This document shows, piece by piece, positions 2,208 to 35,966 of a DNA stretch of 35,966 nt (positions are counted from its first letter, which is position 1; each line of letters begins with the position of its first letter). Below the pieces are notes generated by a model, which saw only the letters and a list, made by a program, of their open reading frames with translations, made no database searches and was not told the origin of the DNA. This stretch comes from Mariprofundaceae bacterium (GTDB taxonomy: Bacteria > Pseudomonadota > Zetaproteobacteria > Mariprofundales > Mariprofundaceae): NCBI GenBank assembly GCA_027018935.1, contig JALUXZ010000224.1, positions 1 through 35,966 on the forward strand, in the 5' to 3' direction. A program made the position numbers and the translations under genes.

Positions 2208-3385
2208 ATTACGATGTGATTATTATAGGGGCTGGGGCTGCGGGTTTGATGTGCGCGGTAGAAGCGGGTAAGCGCGGTCGCTCTGTATTACTGCTCGACC
2301 ATGCTGAAAAAGCGGCTAAAAAAATTCTTATTTCAGGTGGTGGACGTTGTAATTTCACCAATTTGTATGCCAGTGCGGATGATTTTTTATCACAAAATCC
2401 TCATTTCTGTAAGTCAGCATTGGCACGTTTTACGCAATATGACACGTTGGAGATGTTTGAGTCTTATGGCATTGCTTGGCATGAGCGCGAACATGGGCAG
2501 CTGTTTTGTGATGAATCTGCCAAGCAGGTCGTAGATATGCTGCTTGAAAAGTGTGTAGAAAATCATGTAACCATAAAGTTACAAACGAGCATTGATAAGA
2601 TAGTCAAACATACAGGTTTTGATGTTCACAGTGATCAAGGTGTGTTTACGTGCCAGTCACTGGTTGTTGCTACAGGTGGTTTATCCATACCCAAGATGGG
2701 TGCAACGGGTTTGGGTTATCAAATTGCCCGTCAATTCGGCTTGAATATTATCGAGACAGAAGCAGGGCTAGTGCCATTTCGATTGACTGGGAAAACCCAT
2801 GAATCATTAAAGGCATTGGCAGGCATCGCACTACCAGTTGTGGCAAGTTGTAATAATCAGTCATTTGGTGAGGCGATGCTGTTTACCCACCGTGGTATCA
2901 GTGGTCCTGCGATGTTACAAATATCATCGTACTGGCAAGCAGGGCAATCAATTTGCATTAATCTTTTGCCAGATTTGGATGTACGGGCATGGTTAGATGA
3001 GCAGAAAGTAGGGCGTGGCAAACAACATGTAAGAACTGTGTTGTCCGAAATATTACCCAAACGCTTGGTATTGCATTGGTGTGCGCAATATATTCCTGAT
3101 AAACCGTTGCAGAGTTTATCTGATGCTGATTTGGATGTGATTGCATCAGAGTTACACGCATGGCAGTTAAAACCAGCAGCAACTGAAGGCTATCGAACGG
3201 CGGAGGTGACGCTTGGTGGTGTTGATACGGCATGTTTATCATCTAAAACCATGCAGGCAAGAGATGTGCAAGGCTTATATTTTATTGGTGAAGTCGTGGA
3301 TGTGACAGGGCATTTGGGTGGTTTTAATTTTCAATGGGCTTGGGCATCAGGATATGTTGCAGGTGTGGCAATAGGTAGTAGCTAA
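2204..3385 (+). CDS. HI0933/YhiN-family FAD-dependent oxidoreductase
   Basis: Flavoprotein of the HI0933-like (YhiN/BaiN) family; the physiological substrate of most members is unknown. The N-terminus carries a textbook dinucleotide-binding motif, IIIGAGAAGLMCAVEAGKRG. Next comes the family-specific AAKKILISGGGRCNFTN, and a C-terminal FAD-contact segment GEVVDVTGHLGGFNFQWAWA ends the protein. Length (393 residues) is normal for the family. I chose GTG at 2204 rather than the TTG at 2183. GTG gives a 4-base overlap with the upstream stop, has a GGAAG ribosome-binding site eight bases before it, and places the first residues directly at the Rossmann strand ([11 protein letters not shown]). The TAA stop is part of the apparent target duplication of the MITE-like element that follows. 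Confidence 0.93.
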   Translation: MNYDVIIIGAGAAGLMCAVEAGKRGRSVLLLDHAEKAAKKILISGGGRCNFTNLYASADDFLSQNPHFCKSALARFTQYDTLEMFESYGIAWHEREHGQLFCDESAKQVVDMLLEKCVENHVTIKLQTSIDKIVKHTGFDVHSDQGVFTCQSLVVATGGLSIPKMGATGLGYQIARQFGLNIIETEAGLVPFRLTGKTHESLKALAGIALPVVASCNNQSFGEAMLFTHRGISGPAMLQISSYWQAGQSICINLLPDLDVRAWLDEQKVGRGKQHVRTVLSEILPKRLVLHWCAQYIPDKPLQSLSDADLDVIASELHAWQLKPAATEGYRTAEVTLGGVDTACLSSKTMQARDVQGLYFIGEVVDVTGHLGGFNFQWAWASGYVAGVAIGSS

Positions 3386-3386
3386 G

Positions 3387-3476
3387 GGAGGTGCTGATTA
3401 ACTCCTTGCACTTGCCGCCTTGGGGTTGAAAATTTTGAATCGCATATCCACTCATCCAGAGTTAATCAGCACCTCC
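3387..3476. mobile_element. Miniature inverted-repeat element (MITE-like), 90 bp
   Basis: Perfect 18-bp terminal inverted repeats GGAGGTGCTGATTAACTC at 3387-3404 and 3459-3476 enclose 54 bases with no ORF. The element is flanked on both sides by TAAG (3383-3386 and 3477-3480), a plausible 4-bp target duplication; the left copy includes the TAA stop of the flavoprotein gene. The repeat ends resemble those of IS5-type elements, but no transposase is present, so a mobilising partner would have to be elsewhere in the genome. It could also serve as a long-armed hairpin at the 3' end of the upstream mRNA. Confidence 0.72.
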
Positions 3477-3558
3477 TAAGGTATCTATTGAAGAATTTCA
3501 CTTTCTAAGCAGAGAAAGTATTTGTTAGGTATTTGCTCTTAGGTGTTGTTGTCTTGTA

Positions 3559-3649
3559 ACTATTCAGATTGCCGCTGATTTGTTCGAGACCACCAACAGT
3601 AGGCACTTTTAGGCGAGGCGGAAAAGCGCAACTTACTGCTGTAAGTGAG
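3559..3649 (+). repeat. Structured dispersed repeat, copy 1 (right arm lost)
   Basis: Bases 3559-3587 match the left arm of the copy at 29586-29614 (ACTATTCAG, then CTGATTTGTTCGA). After a 23-base insertion unique to this copy, bases 3611-3649 align without gaps to 29615-29653. The aligned core contains GGCGAGGCGGAAAAGCG and a hairpin ACTTAC-TGCT-GTAAGT. The hairpin in the other copy is ATTTAC-TAGT-GTAAAT, so one base pair has changed on both sides. The right outer arm is not present here; the sequence runs into the leader of the macroglobulin gene. Confidence 0.75.
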
Positions 3650-3689
3650 TAGTTTAATATTGGATTGGGATTTGGGCGGGAGAATTTTT

Positions 3690-6600
3690 ATGAGAAAACT
3701 GGTTAATTTTATAGTTAACATTCCAAGTTTGATGATTGGTCGCTTTACTTGGTGGAGTCCACCTTGGGTTGCCTTCTTAAATGCCCAACGGAAAAACTCT
3801 CCAAAAGCCTTTTGGGGAGTGTTTCTTGTATTGATGCTTATAGGGGGTGGGTATGCATATGATAATTCACGCCCAAAACCAGCGTTGGTTACAGCCAGAG
3901 TACAGGCTCCAGCCATTACGCCAAATGTAGAAAATGCTATACCGAATCCCTTACGCGTATTATTTCATCTGAATGGGTCTCTCACATCGGTAGCCTCTTT
4001 GGAGATGATGGATAAAGAGCTAAACAATCATATTAAAATTTCTCCAGCACTAAAAGGAAAGTGGCAATGGGAAAGTGAAAATACGCTTATGTTTAGACCT
4101 GAGAAAGACTGGCCAGCAGGTCAGGAATATTCGTTAAGCTTTCATGAGAAATTATTCTCTAAGAGCATAGAGCTTGAAAACTATACTGCCACATTCAGCA
4201 CCCCTCATTTTAAGGCTGCGCTAAGCTCTATTCGTTTTTATAAGGATCCAACGAACCCTCAAGTTCGAAAGGTTGTCGGCACGCTTACATTTTCACACCC
4301 TGTTGATTCAAAAAGCTTAGAGGAAAAACTATCGCTGTACATGCAGCCTAAAGAGGCATCAAAAAAACGGAGTGCGAAGCCTTATAAGTTCACGCTTAGT
4401 TATGATGATAACAAGCGTCAGGCGTTTATTCATTCTGAAACAGTCTCTATTGAAAAGGATGAGACTTATATGTATCTGGATGTGGCTGCGGGCATCAAGC
4501 CTGTGTATGGTCCTTCGAAAACATTGGAAAAATTAAGTGGTAGAGTTGTCATTCCGAGTACATACACTTTTTTTAGAATTCAGTATGCCAATGGTCAAAT
4601 TGTTCGAGATAAGAAAAATGATAACCAGCCTGATCAAGCACTTGTTATTGAATTCACAGATGGCGTTAAATCAGAAGTGTTAAGTAGAAATGTTAAAGCA
4701 TTTCTTTTGCCTGAAAAACGCTATGTGAAACGAAAATATCCAGTAAGATACATGTGGCAAAGCCCATCCGAGGTTAGCAGTGAAGTGCTATCTAGATCTG
4801 CACCACTGGATTTGGAAGTGCTACCCACCGAACGAGCCTATTCAAGCCTCCAGAGCTTTCGTTTTCGGGCACCTGAGGGGCGTTATATATTTTTACAGGT
4901 TAGCAGCGGGCTGAAATCTGAGGGAGGGTTCAACCTTTCCATGCTAACACCGCGACTGATTCGTGTTCCCGACTACCCAAAAGAAGCAAAAATTGCTTTT
5001 GATGGTTCTTTAATTTCCGCAGCCAGTGAAAAGAAACTCACGCTTATTTCTCGTGGTGTTGAGGCACTTAAAATTGATGTTGGAGAGCTATTGCCTGGGC
5101 AGATTAATCACCTTGTTAGCCAGACAAGTGGAGATATAAAAAATCCGAGCTTTAATGCTAGTTGGATGTTTAATGAAGAAAATATAAGCAAGTTACATTC
5201 AGAAATTCAGCGGCTGAATCTTACTCACCCTGGAAAAGCAATCTATTCAACGATTGATTTGAATAGGCAGCTTAAAAAGTCAGGGAAAAAGTCAGGTGTA
5301 TTTTTTGTTCAGATAAATGGGTGGAATCCAAAAACAAAACAGATCGTTTATAGAGCAAATGATAAGCGTTTGATCATGGTGACTGATATTGGATTGTTGG
5401 TAAAAGATAATGCAGACAAAACCCATGATGTGTTTGTGCAGTCTGTGAAGAATGGAACACCAATCTCAGGGGCGAGGGTTGATGTGCTTGGGAAAAATGG
5501 CGAGGCAGTCGTATCGGCACTTACTACAGCAGATGGTCATGTTTTTTTTCCTAAACTTGATGATTTTAAAGGTGCTAAAACACCTGTTGCCTACCTAGTA
5601 AAAAAAGGTGGGGATATTTCTTTTATTCCTTATAACCGTTCCGCACGCATGATTAATTATTCTCGTTTTGATGTTGGCGGTGTTCAAACTAGGTATCAGA
5701 GCAAAGATGGTCTTAATGCTTATGTTTTCTCAGATAGGGGTATCTATCGCCCAGGAGATACCGTCCATTTATCAGCTATTGTAAAACAGAAAACGTGGGA
5801 ATCGCTTGGAGCTATTCCTCTAGATATTTTTGTAAGAAATTCACGGGGGGAAAATGTCTTACATAAGAAGGTTGAGCTCTCACCCACAGGTTTCTTCGAC
5901 TGGGAGTTAAAGACTAACTATATTTCTGCAACGGGCTTATATACAACGGCTGTGCATCTTGTTAGAGAAAATGGACGATTGGGAAATATGATTGGCTCAA
6001 CTTCTTTTAAAGTTGAAGAGTTTCAGCCTGATAGCATGAAAATAAGAACCCATATTACTGGCGATAAACATCGTGGGTGGTATGGCGTGGAAGGCATGCA
6101 AGTGCAAGTCTCATTGGAAAATTTATTTGGGACACCTGCACAAAACAGAGCTGTACATGCGAATATGGTATTGCTTCCTGCTAGTTTTTCTTTTAAAGAA
6201 TACAAAGGATTTACGTTTGCTGATCCACTCTTAGACCCTGAAAAAAAACGTATCAATGTTGTGGAATCACTCAAGCCTCAAAAGACTGATAAGGAAGGAA
6301 AGGCCAGCTTTTCTTTGAATCTTGATCGTTATAATAAAGGCACATATAGGGTAACGCTCACAGCCGAAGGTTTTGAGGCAGGTGGTGGGCGTAGTGTGAA
6401 TTCTGGTTCTTCAGTTTTAGTCTCACCAGTGAAACATCTTATTGGTTTCAAGCCGGATGGTAGGCTTTCTTTTATTCATAAAGGCAGTAAAAGATCTGTT
6501 AAGTTTGTGGCGATTGATTCGGCTTTGAAGCAGATTCACCTAACAGGAGTAAGCAAGAATCTGATTGAACGAAGATATGTTTCAACACTTGTAAAACAGT

Positions 6601-9437
6601 ATGATGGTACATTTAAGTACCAATCCATTCTAAAAGAAGCCACGATCAAATCTGAGCCTTTTGAGGTGTCTGATAAGGGCGAGACGCTATTACTGCCAAG
6701 CAATGAACCTGGCGATTTTGCAATTGAACTTGTGAGCGCAGAAGGGAATAAGCTTGCGCGTGTCTTATTTTCTGTTGCAGGTGCAGGAAATCTCAGCCGC
6801 TCGCTGGAAAAGAATGCAGAATTGAAAGTGAAGCTGGATCGCAAGCGTTATCATGCAGGTCAAGTTATCGAAATTCAGATAATTGCCCCATATACTGGTG
6901 CAGGGCTGATAACCATCGAGCGAGATAAGGTTTATGCATATAAGTGGTTTAAGACGAATAAAACCAGCACCGTGCAGTCGATTCGTATTCCCGAAGGGCT
7001 TGAAGGAAATGGCTATATAAATGTGAGTTTTATAAGGGCAGCAGATTCGAAAGAAATATTTGTTAGTCCCTTGAGCTACAGTGCCATACCATTCTCTGTA
7101 GGTAGGGAACAAAGGGAAATAAAGATAACGTTGGATTCACCTGAGCAAGTGAAGCCTGGTGAGCTTTTAAAAATACGTTATAAAACTTCTAAAGCATCGA
7201 AAATTGTAATGATCGCTGTTGATGAGGGTATTCTTCAGGTGGCTAAATATAAAACGCCAAAGCCTCTTTCCTATTTCTTCAAAAAGCAGGCATTGGAGGT
7301 GAAAACCTTCCAGATTGTTGATTTGATATTGCCTGAGTATCAGTTAGCCATGAATTTAGCTGCTGCTGGTGGCGGTGATAAAGCTAGAAGGGCTATAGGT
7401 AAAAATCTTAATCCGTTTCGAAGAGTTACGGATGCACCTATTGCTTTCTGGTCTGGTCTGCTAGATGCAGATACGCAGGAAAGAGAGTACAACATTGAGG
7501 TGCCTGATTATTTCAATGGGAGCTTGAGAATTATGGCTGTAGCTGTTTCGCAGGAGGCTATTGGAGCGGCTAGGCATGATACAGTTGTGAAAGGTCCTTT
7601 TGTCATAAGTCCTAATGCACCAGTGGTGGTAGCTCCTGAGGATGAGTTTGAAGTTACGGTTGGTGTTTCAAATAATTTGGAAGGCTCTGGTGAGAATGCC
7701 TCGATTAAAGTCGCGCTTGTGCCTTCAAAACATTTGAGTGTCATTGGGGATCCCCATAAGATTGTTATGGTATCAGAGGGAAGTGAAAGTAAGCTTACTT
7801 TCCGTGTTAAGGCAACGCATAACTTGGGCTCTGGTAGCATGAAATTTACTGCTTCGCACGCGGGGAAATCCAGTCAGCTGACGACAACGCTTAGTATTAG
7901 GCCTGCAGTTCCTCACATGGCGACATTTGTTAGTCATTATGAAAAGTCTGGAGAAGCCAGTGTTTTACTCAAGCGTAAGCTTGTTCCTAATTATGCTGAA
8001 CAGCTTGCATCTGGCTCACATAGCCCATTGGTGATGGTCGAAGGGTTGGGGGTGTACCTTCAAAATTTCGCACATGGCTGTGCTGAACAGATGGTTAGTA
8101 AAGTATTTCCATACCTTGGTTTGTTAAATCATCCTAGATACTCTGTTGATAAGAGTAAGGTAAGAAAAGATTTTGAGACGGTCATGATGAGCCTTCGTAG
8201 TCGGCAGACTGCTGAAGGAGGTTTCCGCTTCTGGTCTGGGCAGGGTGTTACCCAAGGCATTGATTTCCCTTCGGTTTATATTATGCACTTCTTAACCGAT
8301 GCGAAGCAGCTTGGTTACCCAGTACCACATGATGTTTTGAGGAGAGGCTTAGATTACTTGATGAATATCGCAAGGCGTTCGAGTAATTCTATTGAGCTTG
8401 CTCGCCTTCGAGCCTATGCGATTTATATTATGACCAGAAACCAAGTGATGACTGCGAATTACCTTATTGATCTTAACCGTGAGTTGGAAAGCACATATCA
8501 ACATTCTTGGATGAATGATATTACATCGACGTATATGGCAGCATCGTTTCAGCTTCTGAAAAATAAACCATTGCAGCAGAGAATGTTAAAAGGATATAAG
8601 TTTAATACGGACAAGAAACATCTGACATCGGATTTTGATAGTAAGCTAAATCAAGATGCCCAGTATATGTACTTGTTGGCAAAACACTTCCCCAATCAGT
8701 TTGAAGATAAAGTCGGTGTAGAGGCATTGATGGCTATTGTGGAACCCTTAAATAGGGGTGATTACAACACGCTTTCTGCATCGTACTCCATGCTCGCACT
8801 GGGGGCATACACAAGGCACTTTAAAGGGGCTGCAAATGATGATTTGATTAAAATTAATAGCGTGGATGTTGGTGGTAAGAAACATGTTCTGAAAACGAAT
8901 GTAGGGGCTTTTGCCAAGGCTAACTTTCCAGTATCTAGTGAAACCATTGAGTTTCATGCTGGTAAGAATTTATTTTATGTGTTGAGTCAGGCTGGTTATG
9001 ACCGAGAGCTTCCAAAAGAGGAAATCAGGGAGGGGCTTGAGGTTTATAGGGATTACTATAACAAGGCTGGGGAGGCTATCTCATCTGCAGCAATTGGTAG
9101 TGAAGTTGAAGTTAGAATTCGGATACGCACTCTAAATAATGCAAGCGCAACCAATGTTGCAGTTGTTGATTTATTGCCCGGTGGCTTTGAAATTATCCGT
9201 GGCTCATTTACGAGTAGAAATGTTAGCCATGGCTGGCGTAGTCATAAAGATATTCGAGAGGATCGGATTGTTATTTATGGAGATTTTGGCTCGGATGTAT
9301 CTGAATATCGATATAAAGTTAAATTAACAGCTAAAGGTAATTTTACGATTCCCTCTATTTACGCAGGTTCAATGTATAAAAGACATTTGCATGCAAGATC
9401 TGTTGCAGGTGAATTTAAGGTAGTAGGCAGGGAATGA
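3690..9437 (+). CDS. yfhM: Bacterial alpha-2-macroglobulin family protein (YfhM-like), thioester type
   Basis: Giant periplasmic protease trap. In the known family, a protease that cleaves the bait region triggers a conformational change and is captured covalently through an internal thioester. The 1915-residue product is longer than E. coli YfhM (about 1650). The N-terminal MG1 pattern is visible (SPALKGKWQW, then FRPEKDWPAG). The thioester motif CAEQ is intact, with its Cys codon at 8079-8081, followed by the helical thioester domain (GGFRFWSGQG) and C-terminal MG/receptor-like strands. Unlike E. coli YfhM there is no lipobox. Instead a basic cytoplasmic tail of about 35 residues precedes one transmembrane segment (WGVFLVLMLIGGGYAY), suggesting a signal anchor. 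I use ATG 3690 because GGGAG lies seven bases upstream; a GTG at 3645 would fall inside the repeat. It overlaps pbpC by 4 bases, the classic partnership. Confidence 0.95.
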   Translation: MRKLVNFIVNIPSLMIGRFTWWSPPWVAFLNAQRKNSPKAFWGVFLVLMLIGGGYAYDNSRPKPALVTARVQAPAITPNVENAIPNPLRVLFHLNGSLTSVASLEMMDKELNNHIKISPALKGKWQWESENTLMFRPEKDWPAGQEYSLSFHEKLFSKSIELENYTATFSTPHFKAALSSIRFYKDPTNPQVRKVVGTLTFSHPVDSKSLEEKLSLYMQPKEASKKRSAKPYKFTLSYDDNKRQAFIHSETVSIEKDETYMYLDVAAGIKPVYGPSKTLEKLSGRVVIPSTYTFFRIQYANGQIVRDKKNDNQPDQALVIEFTDGVKSEVLSRNVKAFLLPEKRYVKRKYPVRYMWQSPSEVSSEVLSRSAPLDLEVLPTERAYSSLQSFRFRAPEGRYIFLQVSSGLKSEGGFNLSMLTPRLIRVPDYPKEAKIAFDGSLISAASEKKLTLISRGVEALKIDVGELLPGQINHLVSQTSGDIKNPSFNASWMFNEENISKLHSEIQRLNLTHPGKAIYSTIDLNRQLKKSGKKSGVFFVQINGWNPKTKQIVYRANDKRLIMVTDIGLLVKDNADKTHDVFVQSVKNGTPISGARVDVLGKNGEAVVSALTTADGHVFFPKLDDFKGAKTPVAYLVKKGGDISFIPYNRSARMINYSRFDVGGVQTRYQSKDGLNAYVFSDRGIYRPGDTVHLSAIVKQKTWESLGAIPLDIFVRNSRGENVLHKKVELSPTGFFDWELKTNYISATGLYTTAVHLVRENGRLGNMIGSTSFKVEEFQPDSMKIRTHITGDKHRGWYGVEGMQVQVSLENLFGTPAQNRAVHANMVLLPASFSFKEYKGFTFADPLLDPEKKRINVVESLKPQKTDKEGKASFSLNLDRYNKGTYRVTLTAEGFEAGGGRSVNSGSSVLVSPVKHLIGFKPDGRLSFIHKGSKRSVKFVAIDSALKQIHLTGVSKNLIERRYVSTLVKQYDGTFKYQSILKEATIKSEPFEVSDKGETLLLPSNEPGDFAIELVSAEGNKLARVLFSVAGAGNLSRSLEKNAELKVKLDRKRYHAGQVIEIQIIAPYTGAGLITIERDKVYAYKWFKTNKTSTVQSIRIPEGLEGNGYINVSFIRAADSKEIFVSPLSYSAIPFSVGREQREIKITLDSPEQVKPGELLKIRYKTSKASKIVMIAVDEGILQVAKYKTPKPLSYFFKKQALEVKTFQIVDLILPEYQLAMNLAAAGGGDKARRAIGKNLNPFRRVTDAPIAFWSGLLDADTQEREYNIEVPDYFNGSLRIMAVAVSQEAIGAARHDTVVKGPFVISPNAPVVVAPEDEFEVTVGVSNNLEGSGENASIKVALVPSKHLSVIGDPHKIVMVSEGSESKLTFRVKATHNLGSGSMKFTASHAGKSSQLTTTLSIRPAVPHMATFVSHYEKSGEASVLLKRKLVPNYAEQLASGSHSPLVMVEGLGVYLQNFAHGCAEQMVSKVFPYLGLLNHPRYSVDKSKVRKDFETVMMSLRSRQTAEGGFRFWSGQGVTQGIDFPSVYIMHFLTDAKQLGYPVPHDVLRRGLDYLMNIARRSSNSIELARLRAYAIYIMTRNQVMTANYLIDLNRELESTYQHSWMNDITSTYMAASFQLLKNKPLQQRMLKGYKFNTDKKHLTSDFDSKLNQDAQYMYLLAKHFPNQFEDKVGVEALMAIVEPLNRGDYNTLSASYSMLALGAYTRHFKGAANDDLIKINSVDVGGKKHVLKTNVGAFAKANFPVSSETIEFHAGKNLFYVLSQAGYDRELPKEEIREGLEVYRDYYNKAGEAISSAAIGSEVEVRIRIRTLNNASATNVAVVDLLPGGFEIIRGSFTSRNVSHGWRSHKDIREDRIVIYGDFGSDVSEYRYKVKLTAKGNFTIPSIYAGSMYKRHLHARSVAGEFKVVGRE

Positions 9438-13452: not shown

Positions 13453-13479
13453 ATGAGAAGAGCAAGGGGGGGGAAGTGA
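13453..13479 (+). other. Eight-codon mini-ORF with G8 tract overlapping the next start
   Basis: ATG 13453 opens an ORF encoding MRRARGGK; its TGA (13477-13479) overlaps the GTG start of the next gene (GTGA). The ORF contains a run of eight G (13466-13473) that also forms the Shine-Dalgarno region. Adding one G, or losing two, would put this ATG in frame with the downstream gene. Function is unproven; it may be only an accidental reading of the ribosome-binding site. Confidence 0.35.
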
Positions 13480-15146
13480 ATAATATTAACGTATTTATTA
13501 AGGAAAATGTAAGGGGTATTGGAAAAGGTGTGTATGTTGCGCCAGAAATACCCGAGAAAAAGCTTAACAATGCAATAAAAGCCTTTCATTGCGAAGAATT
13601 TTACGAGTCTATATTAGCAATTCAAGACGGAACTATCTTTGGCAGTTCAAAAGAGGGGTTTGTTTTCACAGGTGAGAAAATGATTCATCATAAACATGGT
13701 GAATTTATATATTCAGATATTGATTCTGTTGAGTACATTGAAAACATAACCGTTGATAATGAAGGTAAAGAAAAAAAAGATGCTTACATATTAATATCTA
13801 AGAATCACAAAAAATATAAATTTAACAGTCTTTATGATATAAACATGAAAGGGTTGGTAAAGTTTTTAAATTCTATAATTACAGAGTTTGAAGACTACGA
13901 AGAAGAAGATCAACTTAAAGAAATGGCTGATATGCCAGATGAATTAAAAATAGCATATCTAAAAATAATAATAAATATGACTTTCATTGATGATAAAGAG
14001 ATTGATGAAAAAGAATTGGCTGAATTGTTCTTGCTTATGACAAGGCTTGAACTAGCCAATGAATCAAGGTTTACAGTAAGGTCTTATATAACAGGCATAT
14101 CACAAGATAGTATAGAATCTGTAGAAAATTTATTGAAGGTAATTAAAAGCCATTCAGAAAATAGTCACCATCAATCATTAATGATTTCCTTAGCAAAAGA
14201 TTTAATAAATGTTTATTTTAGCAGTAAAGATACAACAAGCAGAGATTTTAAATTTTTAGATGAGCATCAAGCTTTATTTGGGTTGTCAGGTTCAGAGGTG
14301 GACTTGGCTTATGACACTGTAGAAAATGATTATAAATTATTAAAAGAAGATTTGGATGATGATGCCATTACGAAAAACGCAAAAGAATTAGCATCAAAGG
14401 CTGCTGCTGCTGGCGCACCGTTAGCCGCTGTTTATATTTCAGGCTCTGTTGTGGGGATGTCTGCAGCGGGGATTACATCTGGACTTGCAACCCTTGGTAT
14501 GGGAATGGGTATGACTGGTGGGTTAGCAGTGATTGGCATAATTGGTGTCTTATCCTACAAAGGTGTTAAGCATTTAACTGGAGCGAATGAGCTAGATAAA
14601 TACAAGACTAGAGAGTTAATGCTTCATGAGGTGATTAAGCAAACTCAAAAAACAATATCTTTAATTATTAATGATATCAATTATATAGTTGGTAGATTAA
14701 ATGATATACAGTTATCAGAAGAAAAACTTAAAAATGATATTGACAATATAAAAGACTTACTTGTTAGGAAAAATGCAGAAAATAAAAAATTAATAAAACA
14801 GCTTGCACAATTTCAAGGCGCATTAAAAAGTGTGGATAATAAATCTAATACTTACCAAAATTCAGCCAATAGACTACAAAATCCAAGAATTTTAGATGTT
14901 GATAGATTAAAAGCATTAACATCTGAGCCAACTAAAAAAACTTTATATAATTTCATTATGGCGAATTACGAACAAAAAGAGATAAAAACTAAAGATGGTA
15001 AAAAAAATATATATGCTTTAAAGCAAAATGCTTCAACTGAAATTTTAGATAAAATGGCACAAGTTTTTCAAGCATTAGGTTATTTTGATATGGGAAATAT
15101 TGTTACTTCAAAAGCTTCAAGTTTAGTAAAGGGTATTTTTGGATGA
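13476..15146 (+). CDS. PH-like/TerB-like/glycine-zipper/coiled-coil protein, first gene of cassette
   Basis: No named function recognised. Reading along the 556 residues, about 38-128 resemble a bacterial PH-like (YokE/bPH) domain (ILAIQDGTIFGSSKEGFVFT, then YSDIDSVEYI). About 150-290 have a TerB-like helical pattern with an acidic IDDKEIDEKEL turn. Residues 305-362 are Ala/Gly-rich and hydrophobic (repeated GMGMGMTGG), like a glycine zipper that could insert in membranes. Residues 380-450 are a heptad-like coiled coil rich in Lys, Asn and Ile, and the last 90 residues form a compact alpha/beta tail. GTG 13476 is preceded by a strong purine tract. Codons are much more A/T-ending than in guaB or guaA, suggesting transfer. 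The stop overlaps the next ATG (ATGA). A membrane-associated sensor or scaffold is an inference. Confidence 0.85.
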   Translation: MNNINVFIKENVRGIGKGVYVAPEIPEKKLNNAIKAFHCEEFYESILAIQDGTIFGSSKEGFVFTGEKMIHHKHGEFIYSDIDSVEYIENITVDNEGKEKKDAYILISKNHKKYKFNSLYDINMKGLVKFLNSIITEFEDYEEEDQLKEMADMPDELKIAYLKIIINMTFIDDKEIDEKELAELFLLMTRLELANESRFTVRSYITGISQDSIESVENLLKVIKSHSENSHHQSLMISLAKDLINVYFSSKDTTSRDFKFLDEHQALFGLSGSEVDLAYDTVENDYKLLKEDLDDDAITKNAKELASKAAAAGAPLAAVYISGSVVGMSAAGITSGLATLGMGMGMTGGLAVIGIIGVLSYKGVKHLTGANELDKYKTRELMLHEVIKQTQKTISLIINDINYIVGRLNDIQLSEEKLKNDIDNIKDLLVRKNAENKKLIKQLAQFQGALKSVDNKSNTYQNSANRLQNPRILDVDRLKALTSEPTKKTLYNFIMANYEQKEIKTKDGKKNIYALKQNASTEILDKMAQVFQALGYFDMGNIVTSKASSLVKGIFG

Positions 15147-16651
15147 AAAAAGATTATTTTAAAGGTGAAGGGAATGCCCTTAGAGTTCAAAAACATCAAT
15201 TAAATAATACTGAAAATAAATTGTCTGAAGTTGATGCTCTTTTATCACAAATAGAAAATAGCCAAAAAGAAATGACAGAAGACAATAATAAATATTTATC
15301 AAATGAAGAATATACTAGTTCTAGTATTTATATTTCTGATGATGAATATGACGAAAGTCTTGATGAAATAGAAAGAGAACTATCATTATTAACCAGTATT
15401 GAGAAACACGAGGTAACTCAAATTCAAGAATTAGATTCTATAAAGTTTGATGAAAATATCACTTGGGATAAATATTCTGATTTAGTTAAAGATTATGGAT
15501 TTAAGCATAATATTGATTTAAACGAAGACCCATTTAAACACTTAATGACTAAGTCTCAACAGATTGAACTTCAAAAAAGAATAAATGACGACTTCACACT
15601 AAGAAATGCTGATTGTGATAAATATGATTACATGATCGCTGGAACTTGCGGTGTGATTGGAGGATTAATTGATGTTTTATTTGTTGGAATGCCTGGTGAT
15701 AGCAAATTAGGAAATGTGGCAGATGAACAGGCTAATAAAATTACAGAAAAATTTGCTGAATTTGTAGGATGGGACAAGGATAAAGCGGTTGAAAAAGGAA
15801 AAAATACAACAGCAAGTGCAATAGGTTATTTAGAGGGCAAGTTTAAAATAAACTATGACCAAGCTACAACACATGCAACAGATGGGGAAGTTAAAAATTT
15901 ATCTTTAAAGAATCATCATCTTAAAAGTCTAGGGCATTCACCAGATTTAATTGGCTTATTCTTTTCAATTTTAAATCAATTTACAAGCACATCAACTTTT
16001 GTGAGTAATGGACAAATAATTACGGTAAATACGGAAACATTTGAATTAAACGGGAGTAATTTCGTATCAAAAATATTTTGCGGCTTTGCTAATTGGTTTG
16101 GTCATATTATGTCGGATTGGTCAGGATCATCTGGCACAGTTGGACAAGGAGGAAGAGGCACAGGGGTTCCAATACCATTTTATAATTTACTTCAAATGAT
16201 GAACTTTGGAGAGTTTGGTCAGCACAAACAAAGCTTTGCAACAGTAGCGACTAAAGTATTTGAAAATGGTTATGATGCAAGGCATGGAATGGCAATGGCT
16301 ATTCCAGTTATAACTACTGAGCTATTAGTTAGATTTATGTTTACAATGAAATCACATTTTTATCATAAAAGAGATTGGAAAGACTCTATTCCTAATGGAA
16401 ATATTCCTGAATTAAGAAGAATGTTATTAGTAGGGCATGGAACACTTTGTTTAATTGATGGAGTAGATGCCTATATTCGTTCGGGTGGAGAAATGGTAAC
16501 TTTTTTATCAAGAACAAACTTATTAGCATGGGCTAGATTTGGACAACTTGGCTTAAAAGAGCTTAATGCTTGGTATAATAGCGGTCATATTGATGCTGAT
16601 GCAGTTGATGAATATTTAGATCAAGAATATAAAAGAATGCTACACTATTAA
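15143..16651 (+). CDS. Putative membrane protein with His/Asp metal-site-like signature, second gene of cassette
   Basis: Unrecognised family. The 502-residue product has an acidic, Asn/Glu-rich N-terminal third with coiled-coil character. A hydrophobic helix at about 163-182 (MIAGTCGVIGGLIDVLFVG) is followed by a conserved-looking core: NHHLKSLGHSPDLIGLFFS (His258, His259, His265), then about 45 residues later NWFGHIMSDWSG (His321, Asp325) and GVPIPF at 341-346. The spacing H-H-x5-H-S ... G-H-x-x-S-D ... P-x-P recalls YdjM/DUF457-type membrane metal-dependent hydrolases and zinc phospholipase-like proteins. That resemblance is by eye, not by alignment. Another hydrophobic stretch lies near 383-402. 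It is translationally coupled to the upstream gene and equally AT-rich. An enzymatic effector role is inference. Confidence 0.82.
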   Translation: MKKDYFKGEGNALRVQKHQLNNTENKLSEVDALLSQIENSQKEMTEDNNKYLSNEEYTSSSIYISDDEYDESLDEIERELSLLTSIEKHEVTQIQELDSIKFDENITWDKYSDLVKDYGFKHNIDLNEDPFKHLMTKSQQIELQKRINDDFTLRNADCDKYDYMIAGTCGVIGGLIDVLFVGMPGDSKLGNVADEQANKITEKFAEFVGWDKDKAVEKGKNTTASAIGYLEGKFKINYDQATTHATDGEVKNLSLKNHHLKSLGHSPDLIGLFFSILNQFTSTSTFVSNGQIITVNTETFELNGSNFVSKIFCGFANWFGHIMSDWSGSSGTVGQGGRGTGVPIPFYNLLQMMNFGEFGQHKQSFATVATKVFENGYDARHGMAMAIPVITTELLVRFMFTMKSHFYHKRDWKDSIPNGNIPELRRMLLVGHGTLCLIDGVDAYIRSGGEMVTFLSRTNLLAWARFGQLGLKELNAWYNSGHIDADAVDEYLDQEYKRMLHY

Positions 16652-16668
16652 AGTTAGGGGGGAGTATA

Positions 16669-17424
16669 ATGTTTGCTGTAATTTTTTGGGGTGGTGTTGG
16701 AGCGTTCTTTTTTGGGCCTATTGGAGCTTTGATTGGTGTGGGTATAGGGCTGCTTGCTTTATATGGGGAGTCTATAGATCGGGGTGAGCCAGATGAGATA
16801 GAGCGAGAGGACTTAGGTGACGAGAAAAAAAATATATTTACTGCTCTGTTTGGAATGGCTGCAAAAATTGCTAAAGCAGATGGTATTGTGAGTTCCGAAG
16901 AAGCTGAGGTTATTAAGTTGTTTATGAAGGACCTTAACCTTAGTGAGCAAGATACAGTAATGGCAGGAGAGATTTTTTCAGAAGCAAAAAATAATGATAT
17001 TTCAGTTTATGATTATGCAAAAGACTTTGGGGATATATATGCTCACAATGAGGAGATGCGAGTATGTGTATATCACATGTTATTTGCGGTAGCTGGCAGT
17101 GATGGGGATCTGCACCCTGAAGAAGATAGAATTTTGCGAAATATTATTGATCCGATGAGGTTGGATGCCTCTATGTATAATATGTTGGCAGAAGAGTTTC
17201 TTGGTCAAGTTAATTCACTAGAGGAGTACTATGAAGTGTTAGGCTGCTCTCCAGATGCAACAGATGCACAAGTTAAAAAATCTTATCGTGAGAAATGTAT
17301 TGAATTTCATCCAGATAAAATTATGTCGAAAGGACTGCCTGATTCTTTTATGAAATTCGCTGATGAACAGATGAAAATGGTTACAAATGCTTATGATAAA
17401 ATTCAGGAAGAGCGGTCTTGCTAA
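16669..17424 (+). CDS. DjlA-like TerB/J-domain co-chaperone, third gene of cassette
   Basis: A 251-residue protein with the DjlA plan. The N-terminal membrane segment is Gly-rich (residues 4-32, VGAFFFGPIGALIGVGIG) and precedes a TerB-type helical domain with two acidic turns (AKADGIVSSEEAEV near 68-81 and GSDGDLHPEEDRI near 143-155). A C-terminal J domain covers residues 183-250 with the diagnostic HPD at 214-216. DjlA family members are inner-membrane DnaK co-chaperones that stimulate its ATPase. ATG 16669 has a GGGGGAG ribosome-binding site, 17 bases after the preceding stop. Its codon use is less AT-extreme than the first two cassette genes. The chromosomal dnaK lies 10 kb downstream. It may couple the cassette to DnaK, or be an ordinary djlA that sits here by chance. 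Confidence 0.9.
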   Translation: MFAVIFWGGVGAFFFGPIGALIGVGIGLLALYGESIDRGEPDEIEREDLGDEKKNIFTALFGMAAKIAKADGIVSSEEAEVIKLFMKDLNLSEQDTVMAGEIFSEAKNNDISVYDYAKDFGDIYAHNEEMRVCVYHMLFAVAGSDGDLHPEEDRILRNIIDPMRLDASMYNMLAEEFLGQVNSLEEYYEVLGCSPDATDAQVKKSYREKCIEFHPDKIMSKGLPDSFMKFADEQMKMVTNAYDKIQEERSC

Positions 17425-17497: not shown

Positions 17498-18139
17498 ATG
17501 TCACGCCCATTACGAATAGAATATCCGAATGCAATTTATCATATTACTTCGCGGGGTAATGCCCGAGGTGATATTTTTTTAAATGATGAAGATAGGGAAT
17601 TGTTTCTCGATACGCTTGAGCATGTGATTAAGCGTTTCGGTTGGTTGTGTCATGCTTATTGTTTGATGGATAATCATTATCATTTAGTGATAGAAACACC
17701 GCAGCCAAATCTTTGTGGTGGTATGCGACAACTTAATGGTGTTTATACGCAGCGCTTTAACCGTACTCATCAGCGTGTGGGGCATGTTTTTCAGGGGCGG
17801 TATAAGTCTATTTTGGTTGAGCGCGATGCATATTTATTGGAATTATGCCGTTATGTTGTGCTGAACCCTGTGCGTGCCAATATGGTGGATCATGTTAGGC
17901 AATGGCATTGGAGTAGTTATTCGGCTACGGCAGGTATTGATGCGTGCCCTAGTTGGTTGAGTATTCGGTGGTTGTTGGTGCAATTTTCACATTCGCACAG
18001 AGCGGTTGCATATGCCCAATTTGTTGCGAATGGGGTGAAAGAGGGCTGTTTGTGGGATGGCTTGGGGAAAATAGGGTCAGGTCTTGCAATAAGGCATTAT
18101 TTTTCTAGTATGGGCGGATGTCACGTCCATTACGAATAG
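17498..18139 (+). pseudogene. REP-associated tyrosine transposase, 3'-truncated copy
   Basis: IS200-like Y1/HUH-superfamily transposase of the RAYT group, which nicks single-stranded DNA at REP-type hairpins. The catalytic core is intact in sequence: HUH motif His60-Tyr61-His62 (DNHYHLVIE) and the nucleophile candidate Tyr119 (LCRYVVLNPV). It parallels the downstream copy up to CLWDGLGK (about residue 190), then runs into the left end of the second element and adds about 20 residues of unrelated sequence. The C-terminal roughly 75 residues with the HTH seen in copy 2 are missing. The 3' end overlaps the next gene by 22 bases. Probably inactive or altered in DNA recognition, although the core could still fold. 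Confidence 0.85.
18074..18088 (+). repeat. RAYT left-end motif, copy 2
   Basis: Second exact GGGTCAGGTCTTGCA; marks the junction at which copy 1 is interrupted and copy 2 begins. Confidence 0.85.
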
Positions 18140-31669: not shown

Positions 31670-31684
31670 GCTTTTCTAAAGGGT

Positions 31685-31837
31685 ACCTCGAAAAACCTCG
31701 GACGAGTCAAACGACGCTGATTTTTACTCATAGCAAGGCGCAATAAAATGAGTCATAGCATCGCTATTGCCCATTTTATTCAACGAAGCTAGGGGTGAAA
31801 AGCACAAGTTTGGCGAAGTTTCGAGGTTTTTCGAGGT
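31685..31837. repeat. Palindromic intergenic element after dapB
   Basis: Perfect 16-bp inverted repeats ACCTCGAAAAACCTCG (31685-31700) and its inverse (31822-31837) bound about 153 bases with no ORF. Inside, CAAGGCGCAATAAAATG leads into a second hairpin, AATAAAATG (31742-31750) with CATTTTATT (31772-31780), containing a nested ATAGC/GCTAT. The inner layout (GCTGATTT, then AAGGCG, then an A-rich hairpin) resembles the core of the repeats at 3559 and 29586, with different outer arms. It may also terminate the dnaJ-dapB transcript. The rest of the gap, to 31895, shows nothing further. Confidence 0.72.
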
Positions 31838-31894
31838 CCCTAAAGCCTAAGAATTAAGTGAGCTGCGCGAAAAATAAAAAGCTTGTGAAAGTGA

Positions 31895-32725
31895 ATGCTT
31901 TCATTTTTGATACGCGACATGTCTGATATATCATTCAAAAGTGAAACGGCTAAGAAGCGTCATCAGCAAGTGCTGCAGGCAATTGATGATATTGCACATA
32001 AAGATCAGTTAGCCTTTTTAACAACCAAAAAAGTATCCCAAGAATCGGGGATTTCTGATGGTGTATTGTTTCGTCTATTTTCTTCGAAAGAAAGTATGAT
32101 GGCAGCTTGGTTGGATAGCCGTGGTGAACAACTGCGCATGACGCTTAAGGTAATGACTATTGGCGAGCGTGGCTTACACCAACTAACACAAAAATTATTA
32201 AATGATCGAGTGTCTTTAAGCTTTTTGTGTTGTAGCCCTATGGACACACCCTATTTACGTCAACAACTTGAATATTATCGTGAACAATTTAGACGTTTCT
32301 TACATACGCATATTGAACTTATGAAAATGAATTCATCACCTTTAACAGTCGATGCGCTTACTGATCACTTATTACAATCTATTTATCGCGCTTGGAACCC
32401 TGAAAACCCACAACGCAATCAACACAAGGAGCTGCTTATGACCAAATTACCTTGGGAAAAAGATCAGAATCAAATGGAAACCTTTCCTTCGCAAGATATT
32501 CTTCAACGCTTGGCATTAAATGATAGTGGTTTTGTGTTTGACCCTGAAAGTGGGCGAAGCTTTACTGCCAATGTCGTAGGCTTGTATGTGCTTCGTTTCT
32601 TACAAAATCATAGCAGTGCTGATGATTTACTTGCGGCTATTGAATCTGATTTTGATGTAAATCGTAATGATGCAGAGCGTGATATTACTGAATTTTCAGC
32701 GCAATTGCGTAAATTTCTTGTATGA
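31895..32725 (+). CDS. TetR-type regulator fused to a PqqD-like domain
   Basis: Two modules in one frame. Residues about 20-75 are a TetR-type helix-turn-helix (TTKKVSQESGISDGVLFRLF), followed by a helical ligand/dimer region up to about residue 180, a normal size for a whole TetR protein. Residues about 198-276 look like a PqqD fold (LALNDSGFVFDPESGRSFTA, then VVGLYVLRFL, and a final helix-rich acidic part), the domain that binds leader peptides in RiPP pathways. Start is uncertain: ATG 31895 has only a weak GAAAG site, and ATG 31919 gives MSDISFKSE. An internal ATG at 32438 with a strong ribosome-binding site could make the PqqD part alone. The stop overlaps the ATP-grasp start (ATGA). Confidence 0.85.
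   Translation: MLSFLIRDMSDISFKSETAKKRHQQVLQAIDDIAHKDQLAFLTTKKVSQESGISDGVLFRLFSSKESMMAAWLDSRGEQLRMTLKVMTIGERGLHQLTQKLLNDRVSLSFLCCSPMDTPYLRQQLEYYREQFRRFLHTHIELMKMNSSPLTVDALTDHLLQSIYRAWNPENPQRNQHKELLMTKLPWEKDQNQMETFPSQDILQRLALNDSGFVFDPESGRSFTANVVGLYVLRFLQNHSSADDLLAAIESDFDVNRNDAERDITEFSAQLRKFLV
32438..32725 (+). CDS. Possible stand-alone PqqD-like protein from internal start
   Basis: ATG 32438 lies in the same frame as the TetR-PqqD gene (residue 182) and is preceded by AAGGAG (32426-32431) at an ideal 6-base spacing. This is far better than any site at the long gene's own start. It would yield 95 residues beginning MTKLPWEKDQ, the usual size of a free PqqD. Whether both products are made is not shown by the sequence alone. 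Confidence 0.5.
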   Translation: MTKLPWEKDQNQMETFPSQDILQRLALNDSGFVFDPESGRSFTANVVGLYVLRFLQNHSSADDLLAAIESDFDVNRNDAERDITEFSAQLRKFLV

Positions 32726-33855
32726 GTAAGTCAGATAAAAAAATGTTAACCATTGCTGTTACAGGCATGAATGCGAAGCCTGATAATCCAGGCCCTGGTT
32801 TGGCTGTGGCGCGTTGTCTTCGCTTGGCACATGGCGATCATATTCGCATTATTGGTTTGGGTTACGATGTGTTGGATGCTGGGCTTTATTTGCAAGACAT
32901 TTGTGATGTATCTTATTTACTGCCCTACCCATCTGCAGGTGAGCAGCAATTGATGGAGCGCATGCAACATATTCAAGAGCAAGAGCAAGTTGATGTGTTG
33001 ATTCCATGCTTGGATGCGGAACTATTAAGCTTTAGTCGCTTGCACCATGAGTTTGAAAGTCTGGGTATTCGCATGTTAATTCCTGATGTGGCGCAATTAC
33101 GTGACCGCAATAAGGATCGACTGGGTGAGTTGTCTAAAAATGCTGGCATCCGTTACCCTGAGACTAAAACTATCACCAGCGCGAATTTCTTTTATCAATG
33201 CCATGATGATGGCTGGAAATATCCGATGGTTGTAAAGGGTATTTTTTATGATGCGACCATTGTTCATAGTGCTGATGAAGGTGCGCAAGCTTTTCGTCAG
33301 ATTGCCGCCAGTTGGGGATACCCAGTATTGGTGCAACGCTACGTGGAAGGGCATGAGGTTAATTTAACAGCCATCGGTGATGGTAAAGGCAAGCTTTTAG
33401 GCTCAGTGATGATGCGCAAGCAAGCGGTTACGGATAAAGGCAAAGCTTGGTCTTGCGTGACTGTTGAAAACAAACAACTGCGTGAAGATGCGGAGAAATT
33501 AGCCAAGGAATTGCAATGGGCAGGTCCTTTAGAAGTGGAAATGTTGAAAGAGCCTGATGGTAATTATTTGCTTATTGAAATAAACCCTCGCTTTCCTGCT
33601 TGGATTTATTTGGCAGCTGAATCTGGGTGTAATCTGCCTGCTGGATTGGTGGATTTAATACTGGAGAAAAAGCCGGAATTTATGCCTGCAAAAACGGGTA
33701 TGATGATGATTCGTTATGCCAAAGAAACGGTCATTGATTTGGAAACTTTTGAATCCATGTCGATGTATGGCAGCTATGCGCCGAAGGCAATAGTGAAAAA
33801 AAGTATACCCGCACACCCTATTGAAGGGCATTCATCACATGGAGATAAATCATGA
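32722..33855 (+). CDS. ATP-grasp domain ligase
   Basis: ATP-dependent carboxylate-amine/thiol ligase of the carbamoyl-phosphate-synthase-like ATP-grasp group, 377 residues. A preATP-grasp Rossmann-like half (residues 9-125) is followed by the grasp. KYPMVVKG (167-174) supplies an ATP-contacting Lys, VLVQRYVEGHEVNLTAIGDG (203-222) carries acidic and His residues, and LIEINPRFPAW (284-294) holds the Mg-binding Glu-x-Asn. The product is unknown. It overlaps both neighbours by 4 bases, so it is co-translated with the PqqD-containing protein and the PLP enzyme. Together they suggest joining an amino acid or amine to a carrier or peptide (inference). Confidence 0.92.
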   Translation: MSKSDKKMLTIAVTGMNAKPDNPGPGLAVARCLRLAHGDHIRIIGLGYDVLDAGLYLQDICDVSYLLPYPSAGEQQLMERMQHIQEQEQVDVLIPCLDAELLSFSRLHHEFESLGIRMLIPDVAQLRDRNKDRLGELSKNAGIRYPETKTITSANFFYQCHDDGWKYPMVVKGIFYDATIVHSADEGAQAFRQIAASWGYPVLVQRYVEGHEVNLTAIGDGKGKLLGSVMMRKQAVTDKGKAWSCVTVENKQLREDAEKLAKELQWAGPLEVEMLKEPDGNYLLIEINPRFPAWIYLAAESGCNLPAGLVDLILEKKPEFMPAKTGMMMIRYAKETVIDLETFESMSMYGSYAPKAIVKKSIPAHPIEGHSSHGDKS

Positions 33856-35231
33856 CGCAAACAAAACAAGTTTGGAGTAAACCAACGCTTACACCGCATC
33901 AAATGGGCTCCATGAATAAATTTGGTAGTGTTAGCCATAGCCATCATCAAGATAGTTTTGAAGGTGTTGCGATTGCGCCATTATTAGAGAAATATGGTTC
34001 ACCATTGTTTATTCTTTCTGAAAAACGCTTGCGAAACAATGTGCGTAAGTTATTGCGCGCATTTGAAACACGCTATACTTCTGTGACCTATAGCTGGTCT
34101 TATAAAACCAACTATTTGGGAGCTGTTTGCACAACCTTTCATCAAGAAGGGGCTTGGGCTGAGGTAGTCTCTGCATTTGAATATGAAAAGGCTCGCTCAT
34201 TGGGCGTTCCAGCCAAACATATTTTATTCAATGGCCCGCATAAACAGCGATTTATTCTTGAACGTGTGGTTGCTGAAGGTGCACGCATTCATCTGGATAA
34301 TCTTGATGAGTTGTATGTGTTAGAAGATATTGCCAAAGAAGCAGGCAAACAAGTTGATGTGACCATGCGCCTTAATTTTGATACAGGTTACACCGAACCT
34401 TGGAGCCGCTTTGGCTTTAATATTGAATCAGGCCAAGCCATGGATGCAGCACGTATTTTAGGCGAGAGCAAGCATCTGAACTTGGCAGGCTTGCACAGTC
34501 ATTTAGGGACATTTGTACTTGATCCAAGAGCTTATTCTGCACAAATTCATATTATGTGTGCATTTATGAACGATGTTGAATCACAAACAGGCTGCCATAT
34601 TGAAAGTATTGATATTGGTGGTGGTTTTGCATCGATGAATTCATTGCAAGGCAGCTATTTACCGCCTGAACAAGTGGTGCCAAGCATTGATCAATATGCG
34701 GAAGCAATTTGCACAGCCTTAAATGATGCAACACGCGAGCGTGATATGCAGGGCAAAGGCAGGCCTCGACTTATTTTGGAAAGTGGTCGTGCGATGGTGG
34801 ATGATGCAGAAATTCTTGTCACATCGGTGATTGCCAATAAACGCATGCCTGATGGTCGGCGTTCTGTGGTGATTGATGCGGGTGTGAATCTATTATTTAC
34901 AGGCTTTTGGTATAATCATCCGATTACACCAACGCGGCCTTTGGATGGTGTGGCAGAAGATACGGTACTTTATGGGCCATTGTGCATGAATATCGATATT
35001 ATGCGTCAATCAGCGATGCTTCCTCCAATGAATGTGGGTGATTCACTCATTTTTGGGCATGTTGGTGCGTATAATAATACGCAATGGATGCAGTTTATTG
35101 AGTATCGTCCTAATATCATCATGGTTCATGAAGATAGTTCTGTGTCTGTTGTGCGTCATGCTGAAGATTTGCAGGTGATGACAGCCCAAGAAGTTATTCC
35201 AGAACATTTATCCAGCGTAACGAAACGGTAG
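33852..35231 (+). CDS. LysA-like fold-type III PLP enzyme with leader-like N-terminal tail
   Basis: Alanine-racemase-fold decarboxylase-like enzyme, 459 residues. PLP would attach to Lys85 (YSWSYKTNY). HSHLG (215-219) and DIGGGF (254-259) contact the cofactor, ESGRAMV follows, and Cys378 in YGPLCMNIDIM is the second-subunit Cys of diaminopimelate/ornithine-type decarboxylases. The dedicated lysA motif set is loosely kept, so a different substrate is likely. Before the barrel lies an unusual tail of about 40 residues, VWSKPTLTPHQMGSMNKFG then a His/Ser-rich stretch. Trp8-x-x-Pro11-x-Leu13 followed by a Gly recalls leader peptides read by PqqD-type domains. The start overlaps the ATP-grasp stop (ATGA). 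Confidence 0.9.
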   Translation: MTQTKQVWSKPTLTPHQMGSMNKFGSVSHSHHQDSFEGVAIAPLLEKYGSPLFILSEKRLRNNVRKLLRAFETRYTSVTYSWSYKTNYLGAVCTTFHQEGAWAEVVSAFEYEKARSLGVPAKHILFNGPHKQRFILERVVAEGARIHLDNLDELYVLEDIAKEAGKQVDVTMRLNFDTGYTEPWSRFGFNIESGQAMDAARILGESKHLNLAGLHSHLGTFVLDPRAYSAQIHIMCAFMNDVESQTGCHIESIDIGGGFASMNSLQGSYLPPEQVVPSIDQYAEAICTALNDATRERDMQGKGRPRLILESGRAMVDDAEILVTSVIANKRMPDGRRSVVIDAGVNLLFTGFWYNHPITPTRPLDGVAEDTVLYGPLCMNIDIMRQSAMLPPMNVGDSLIFGHVGAYNNTQWMQFIEYRPNIIMVHEDSSVSVVRHAEDLQVMTAQEVIPEHLSSVTKR

Positions 35232-35239
35232 GCGTAAGT

Positions 35240-35966
35240 TTGTTTAGCAATAAACTATTACAAAACCCAATCCAAGGTTTACTGAGAGCTTATGGCTCCA
35301 TTTTGTTTGCTGAAAAACCTTGGGTTGGCGGATTGTTTTTACTGGCAACGTTATGGTTTCCCAATACAGGTCTTGCGGGCATATTGGCGGCTATTGTTGG
35401 TATTGTAACAGCCAAGCTACTCAAGTTTAATCATCTTGAAAGTGGTTTGCATGTGTATAACAGCTTGTTGGTAGGTCTTTCTTTGGGTGCATATTACCAG
35501 CTTAATATGCACCTTGCGGTGTTGATTACGCTAGGAGCTATTTTGGCAGTATTTGCAACCGTAGCAATGCGTGATGTGATGTGGCGTTTGGGGCATGTTC
35601 CAGTCTTGAGTTTGCCTTTTGTGATTGTTGCACTGACGGTAACTTTAGCAGCGCATAGTTATGGCACATTAGAGCGTTATTTATTGCCATTAGCTCCCAG
35701 TTCAACATTTATAAATACGTGGATTGATCAATTTTTAACAGCTCTGGGATCAGCATTTTTTACCCCGCATCCTGTTGCAGGGTTGCTTCTTTTCTTAGGT
35801 ATATTGATGACCTCACGCTACTTGGCTTGGCTGGTGATTAGTGGTTTTATTTGTGGCTTTAGTGTTTATAGCTTTCTTTCAGGTAGTCCGCATCCTGATT
35901 TGGTTGCATGGAATGGTTTTAATTTTATTTTGGTGGCGATGGCTCTGGGTGGCATTTTTACCATAC
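35240..35966 (+). CDS. Urea-transporter (UT) family membrane protein, 3' truncated by window
   Basis: Predicted multi-pass channel-like protein of the UT family; about 242 residues are visible before the window ends. Hydrophobic helices alternate with the two UT repeat signatures: SGLHVYNSLLVGLSLGA in the first half and VAWNGFNFILVAMALGG in the second. An amphipathic start, NKLLQNPIQGLLRAYGSILF, precedes the first membrane helix. No ATG is available, so TTG 35240, nine bases after the PLP-enzyme stop, is the likely start, with only a weak purine stretch upstream. Being fourth in this operon suggests it moves a small amide or amine linked to the pathway, possibly urea, but the substrate cannot be read from the sequence. 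Confidence 0.88.
   Translation, partial: MFSNKLLQNPIQGLLRAYGSILFAEKPWVGGLFLLATLWFPNTGLAGILAAIVGIVTAKLLKFNHLESGLHVYNSLLVGLSLGAYYQLNMHLAVLITLGAILAVFATVAMRDVMWRLGHVPVLSLPFVIVALTVTLAAHSYGTLERYLLPLAPSSTFINTWIDQFLTALGSAFFTPHPVAGLLLFLGILMTSRYLAWLVISGFICGFSVYSFLSGSPHPDLVAWNGFNFILVAMALGGIFTI

Follow-up and report, generated by a model that had tools for sequence, protein, structure and literature searches.

A PqqD-type domain may dock a leader-tagged PLP decarboxylase to an ATP-grasp ligase in a widespread bacterial gene cassette

Genome mining with RRE domains assumes that these domains bind short precursor peptides. What, then, does a PqqD-type RRE bind in an operon that encodes no separate precursor? 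The question is raised by the end of a Mariprofundaceae contig. The window, i.e. the whole stretch of 35,966 nucleotides that was analysed, comprises an entire contig from a Ghiorsea/Mariprofundaceae-like genome, and its last four genes, all on the + strand, encode a TetR-PqqD fusion (31919..32725, with the PqqD/RRE part at about 32534-32713), an ATP-grasp ligase of the PRK12767/PylC-like group (32722..33855; ATPgrasp_Ter and ATP-grasp_3 matches), a predicted fold-III (alanine-racemase-fold) PLP decarboxylase (33852..35231; PF02784 and PF00278), and a UT (urea-transporter-type) channel (35240..35966; PF03253, E 1.6e-41). The contig end therefore cuts the UT gene short. Two ATGA overlaps join the first three genes and an 8-nt gap precedes the UT gene, which has a TTG start. 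The original prediction had described exactly such a chain with a fourth gene close behind, and its domain calls (PqqD, ATP-grasp, PLP, UT) were confirmed by Pfam and NCBIfam. It had begun the first gene at 31895; the reading frame stands (the longest ORF does run from 31895), but the ATG at 31919 is the likelier start, because an operator palindrome described below overlaps the ATG at 31895.

The conservation of the gene set was followed in a contig scan of genomes with a PLP alignment, which gave 575 relatives, and 80 loci were kept. All four genes were found together in 68 of the 80 fetched loci, spread over about a dozen phyla, and many of the remaining loci are cut by contig ends. The 80 loci being independent, the linkage of the genes is far beyond chance; the proposed co-conservation of PqqD, ATP-grasp, PLP and UT genes was thus borne out by gene neighbourhoods, and the possibility that the genes are not kept together elsewhere was refuted. 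The hosts include Zeta-, Gamma-, Beta- and Alphaproteobacteria, Obscuribacterales, Eremiobacterota, Aquificota, Ignavibacteria, Thermodesulfatator, Gemmatimonadetes, Calditrichota and others. Among 399 sampled genomes of the phylum, 36 carry ATP-grasp orthologues, and the ATP-grasp and PLP genes co-occur in 35 of the 38 genomes that have either; the three exceptions are G074, with a distant PLP gene lacking the N-terminal tag described below, and two incomplete genomes. In the open-access literature we found no paper that connects PqqD and ATP-grasp with UT or DAP decarboxylase, and no prior description of the gene set; the original prediction, too, could not match it to a known pathway.

A cognate YxxP-type leader motif is present within the same operon, on the PLP enzyme. 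Residues 5-25 of this enzyme (KQVWSKPTLTPHQMGSMNKFG; 33864..33926, + strand) form a tag at its disordered N-terminus with the pattern [WY]xxPx[ILV]...G..NKFG. This pattern matches the leader motif by which PqqD/RRE domains recognise lasso peptides; for RREs of the lasso/PqqD group, W/YxxP has been published as the recognition motif (PMC12710340). The PqqD part of the first gene matches PF05402 (E 4.6e-10, 40.1 bits against a gathering threshold of 23.4), as do its standalone relatives, and the lasso-peptide RRE TfuB1 (6JX3, E 3.9e-5) is the only PDB entry that it matches in sequence. Cassette PLP enzymes start with [WY]xxPx[ILVFMT]...G..NKFG or a close variant, and [WY]xxPx[ILV] was found in 75/75 of those with a readable start, or 77/77 after addition of L105, which lies at a contig end, and L114, whose ATP-grasp gene is elsewhere in the genome. 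Across 58 aligned sequences, W or Y occupies position 8 in 57, P11 is present in all 58, N22 and G25 in 56 each, and K23 in 53. DAPDC, ODC and FslC structures have no such tag, and alignments to solved decarboxylases never reach further towards the N-terminus than query residue 27, which marks the tag as an element foreign to the decarboxylase fold. In an AlphaFold model of the enzyme alone (mean pLDDT 90) the tag was disordered: pLDDT fell below 50 at residues 15-18 and 20-27. The tag is strongly conserved yet, as modelled, without a place in the decarboxylase fold.

The tag also follows the cassette. Five of the six PLP enzymes located away from a cassette lack [WY]xxPx[ILV], and only that of G504 keeps the W. 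Fisher's test of this linkage gave p = 2e-7, a value that is indicative only, because the orphans are not phylogenetically independent. The orphan loci (L179 in G074, a 100% complete genome with no ATP-grasp; L177/L180 in G428; L176/L086 in G399; L174 in G479; L175 in G504; and the second copy L178 in G453) are few and partly related, several being from Methylococcaceae.

In locus L103 the three genes lie in one frame, and reading the stop codons as Gly gives an 886-aa PqqD-ATPgrasp-PLP pseudo-fusion. In its AlphaFold model, residues 441-450 around Y443VKP446TL reached pLDDT values of up to 80 and a new strand appeared at 448-451, the partner of which was not visible in an output without PAE or coordinates, while residues 452-465, including MNKFG, stayed below 50. 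The modelling suggests that the tag takes on order when PqqD and ATP-grasp are present, in a manner that would look like RRE-leader pairing by strand addition, for which the alpha3/beta3 cleft is the expected site; the pseudo-fusion and enzyme-alone models come from different species. A Foldseek search with the fusion model returned, among its best 50 matches, the decarboxylase part only, and has no bearing on docking.

The gene set, the tag, its correlation with the cassette and the operator can all be read directly from the DNA, and from them a hypothesis regarding the mechanism may be put forward, to which we give a probability of about 0.5: PqqD uses the tag to dock decarboxylase and ligase to each other, and the two enzymes make a decarboxylated amino-acid conjugate in a two-step complex. 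PqqD would act as an RRE in direct contact with the tag, gripping YxxPxL of the PLP N-terminus and thereby holding decarboxylase and ligase together. The ATP-grasp enzyme would couple an amino acid with another group, probably an uncharged one, and the LysA/FslC-type PLP enzyme would remove the alpha-carboxylate from this conjugate, a step modelled on FslC with citryl-ornithine and BtrK with a glutamyl-carrier. The product would then be moved or processed at the membrane by UT-M23, the full-length form of the fourth gene product. In the Mariprofundaceae lineage, the TetR-fused RRE would additionally bind the palindrome before its own gene, and expression could thereby follow the amount of tagged decarboxylase.

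The strong conservation of NKFG after YxxPxL goes beyond what docking alone explains. The main rival reading takes it up by regarding the tag as a precursor fused to its enzyme, with YxxPxL as the leader and NKFG as the core, which would be modified on the decarboxylase, itself the carrier or precursor, by the PqqD-recruited ATP-grasp enzyme before M23 releases the product. The leader-core order, the near-invariant N22, K23 and G25 within a disordered segment, the combination of an RRE with ATP-grasp, the peptidase fused to a transporter and the lack of any other precursor all fit such an arrangement. However, some intact cassettes have S, T or P in place of K23, and two complete cassettes of Thermodesulfatator (L124 and L125) keep the tag as YQKPTI with NKFG absent, which makes them useful for telling apart the roles of the two tag halves. 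Three orphans with no ATP-grasp gene in the genome retain NKFG or NKFD/NKLG, and the core would be no longer than a few residues, with a whole enzyme behind it. We consider this reading unlikely, albeit one to be taken seriously beside docking.

The fusion of PqqD to a TetR part allows another role for the tag to be considered. The N-terminal part of the first gene product scores 22 bits against TetR_N, just below the Pfam gathering cut-off of 24; NCBIfam models including SlmA and BetI, and TetR chains in the PDB, among them SlmA, match it weakly. Though narrowly under the cut-off, it putatively works like a TetR protein. A conserved palindrome (TGTGAAAGTgaatgCTTTCATTTT; 31884..31907, + strand, palindromic core 31886-31903) lies next to this gene and, as is characteristic of the TetR family, is predicted to be the operator to which its product binds. 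The conserved form, TGTGAAAGTRAAYACTYTCATTTT, stands upstream of TetR-PqqD genes; in the window and its close relatives the distance to the start is about 33 nt. Within the 80-locus set it was found upstream of 8/11 TetR-PqqD genes, and also in Mariprofundaceae relatives, against 0/62 PqqD genes without TetR (1.15 Mb searched). In each of eight genomes there is no second site with one mismatch or fewer, and in the window 0.05 matches to its 18-base core are expected by chance when up to two mismatches are tolerated. In a rival to the docking reading, the tag might serve mainly as a sensor signal, its free form being bound by TetR-PqqD or PqqD to regulate expression or activity rather than channelling. 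The fusion with its conserved single operator speaks for this role, but TetR is fused to PqqD in only 11/73 PqqD-containing loci, and the others keep both the tag and an unfused PqqD, which leaves a mainly signalling function rather improbable.

A conventional RiPP cluster, its precursor encoded elsewhere or overlooked, would agree with the presence of a PqqD-type RRE and an ATP-grasp enzyme, both common RiPP components (PMC12710340). A dedicated small-ORF search around the 80 loci found none that is conserved, which rules against a hidden precursor and agrees with the original prediction that no separate precursor peptide is seen; the PLP enzyme carries the only recurrent YxxPx[ILV] sequence. 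The earlier carrier-peptide or RiPP-like interpretation was partly supported, but had missed that the leader-like sequence is the PLP N-terminus. Because that sequence is carried by the PLP enzyme, a docking or carrier tag, or else a fused precursor, is favoured over a conventional cluster, which we regard as very unlikely. Compared with lasso-peptide and PQQ biosynthesis (TfuB1/TfuA and PqqD/PqqA), the cassette shares the PqqD fold, the sequence match to TfuB1 and the W/YxxP-type motif (PMC12710340), but the motif sits on an enzyme of about 450 aa instead of a short precursor peptide, and there is no cyclase, rSAM enzyme or separate precursor. More generally, we tentatively suggest that the RRE here might clamp a leader-bearing metabolic enzyme, for docking or as a carrier, in a widespread non-RiPP or enzyme-fused RiPP class of about a dozen phyla where TetR-RRE fusions couple enzyme level to transcription. 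If true, this would be a second use of the RRE, explaining some RREs without a nearby precursor, and an unexplored metabolite pathway would be spread over many phyla.

Regarding the chemistry, PF02784 and PF00278 were both matched by 58/58 PLP sequences, and the catalytic K85, G256-258, R313 and C378 are invariant in the 58 aligned sequences; by these sequence criteria the enzyme belongs to the fold-III PLP decarboxylases. Its nearest solved relative is the N-citrylornithine decarboxylase FslC/FigC. Two replacements, T350 for the Arg of the DAP-binding 3-10 helix and M379 for the acidic residue after the catalytic Cys, are likewise invariant in the 58 sequences; FslC, too, lacks both DAP-binding residues. 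In the alignment, however, the citrate-binding H357 and R387 of FslC correspond to I381 and Q411. Assignment to FslC was rejected, given 203.7 bits against a cut-off of 500 (NF041039) and the replacement of H357/R387; the partner used in conjugation by the ligase is probably not a tricarboxylate. The least probable of all readings is an ordinary diaminopimelate decarboxylase in lysine or peptidoglycan salvage, tied to wall hydrolysis by M23: the LysA model (TIGR01048) does give 209 bits and an M23 domain adjoins, but the score is under the cut-off of 297.9, the DAP-binding Arg and acidic residue are replaced, the genome contains another LysA-like gene, which runs off the end of its contig, and the link to ATP-grasp and PqqD is strict.

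FigC, SbnH, AcsE, MccE and BtrK are grouped together as decarboxylases of conjugated amino acids (PMC7857480). Considering the adjoining ATP-grasp ligase, the likeliest route would be ligation followed by decarboxylation of the conjugate. The original prediction of an uncharacterised pathway, probably with an amino-acid-derived product, may be counted as right, and the gene set is co-conserved. FslA and FslC of rhizoferrin biosynthesis share this ligase-then-decarboxylase logic, and FslC/FigC resembles the cassette enzyme in sequence, fold, catalytic residues and the Met beside the catalytic Cys; FslA, however, is an NIS synthetase instead of an ATP-grasp enzyme, and FslC has neither a tag nor an RRE partner. 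In butirosin biosynthesis, BtrJ is an ATP-grasp enzyme. The BtrJ/BtrK/BtrI system also combines an ATP-grasp-type ligase with a LysA-like decarboxylase whose substrate is a conjugated amino acid (for the BtrK step: PMC7857480), but it employs BtrI, a phosphopantetheine carrier protein of which the cassette has no counterpart, and BtrK ranks under FslC and LysA among the matches of the PLP enzyme.

The truncated UT gene scores 142.8 bits with PF03253, which passes the Pfam gathering threshold, and 93.7 with the NCBIfam model urea_trans_yut, against a cut-off of 274.6. A look for more genes past 35966 had been suggested; the contig itself stops there, whereas in relatives the UT part continues into M23 as a fusion of about 720 aa, often followed by further genes. 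The metal-binding and catalytic M23 residues H352, D361, H435, H468 and H470 (L033 numbering) are invariant in 71 sequences, and positive charges after the last helix, a crude estimate, suggest that M23 lies on the cytoplasmic side. In roughly half of the loci UT-M23 is followed by a secreted protein of about 300 aa and a TPR protein of about 210 aa; the former, which has no Pfam match, is probably a beta-barrel, putatively of the outer membrane. PCAT is a peptidase-transporter fusion in which an ABC transporter is joined to a C39 peptidase. UT-M23 is analogous to it as a membrane transporter with a peptidase domain attached, encoded beside an RRE-containing pathway, but consists of a UT channel and an M23 metallopeptidase.

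Two further observations concern the neighbourhoods. Metal-efflux type genes (P-type ATPase, RND, multicopper oxidase) were present in the fetched flanks of 11/80 loci (L048, L051, L066, L074, L078, L086, L096, L097, L102, L111 and L124), a raw count that gives a possible hint at a link to metal stress and plays no part in the readings above. Loci L203 (G887, 3248-7301) and L204 hold a divergent version of the cassette, with the tag SPYVRPALSPL...VNKQG, a UT protein without M23, and two ATP-grasp copies, one of which has altered residues in the catalytic region.

Elsewhere in the window, a palindromic 174-bp repeat (31672-31845) with 19-nt arms at 31682-31700 and 31822-31840 lies just upstream of the operon; it is MITE-like, with about 40 copies in the genome that are >90% identical. 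The ORF at 17498-18139, which from its N-terminal motif we take to resemble a REP-associated tyrosine transposase, could mobilise small palindromic repeats. Three genes at 13476-17424 form an island of low GC content (29-37% against ~42%), and the last of them apparently encodes TerB and DnaJ domains, as assigned by eye.
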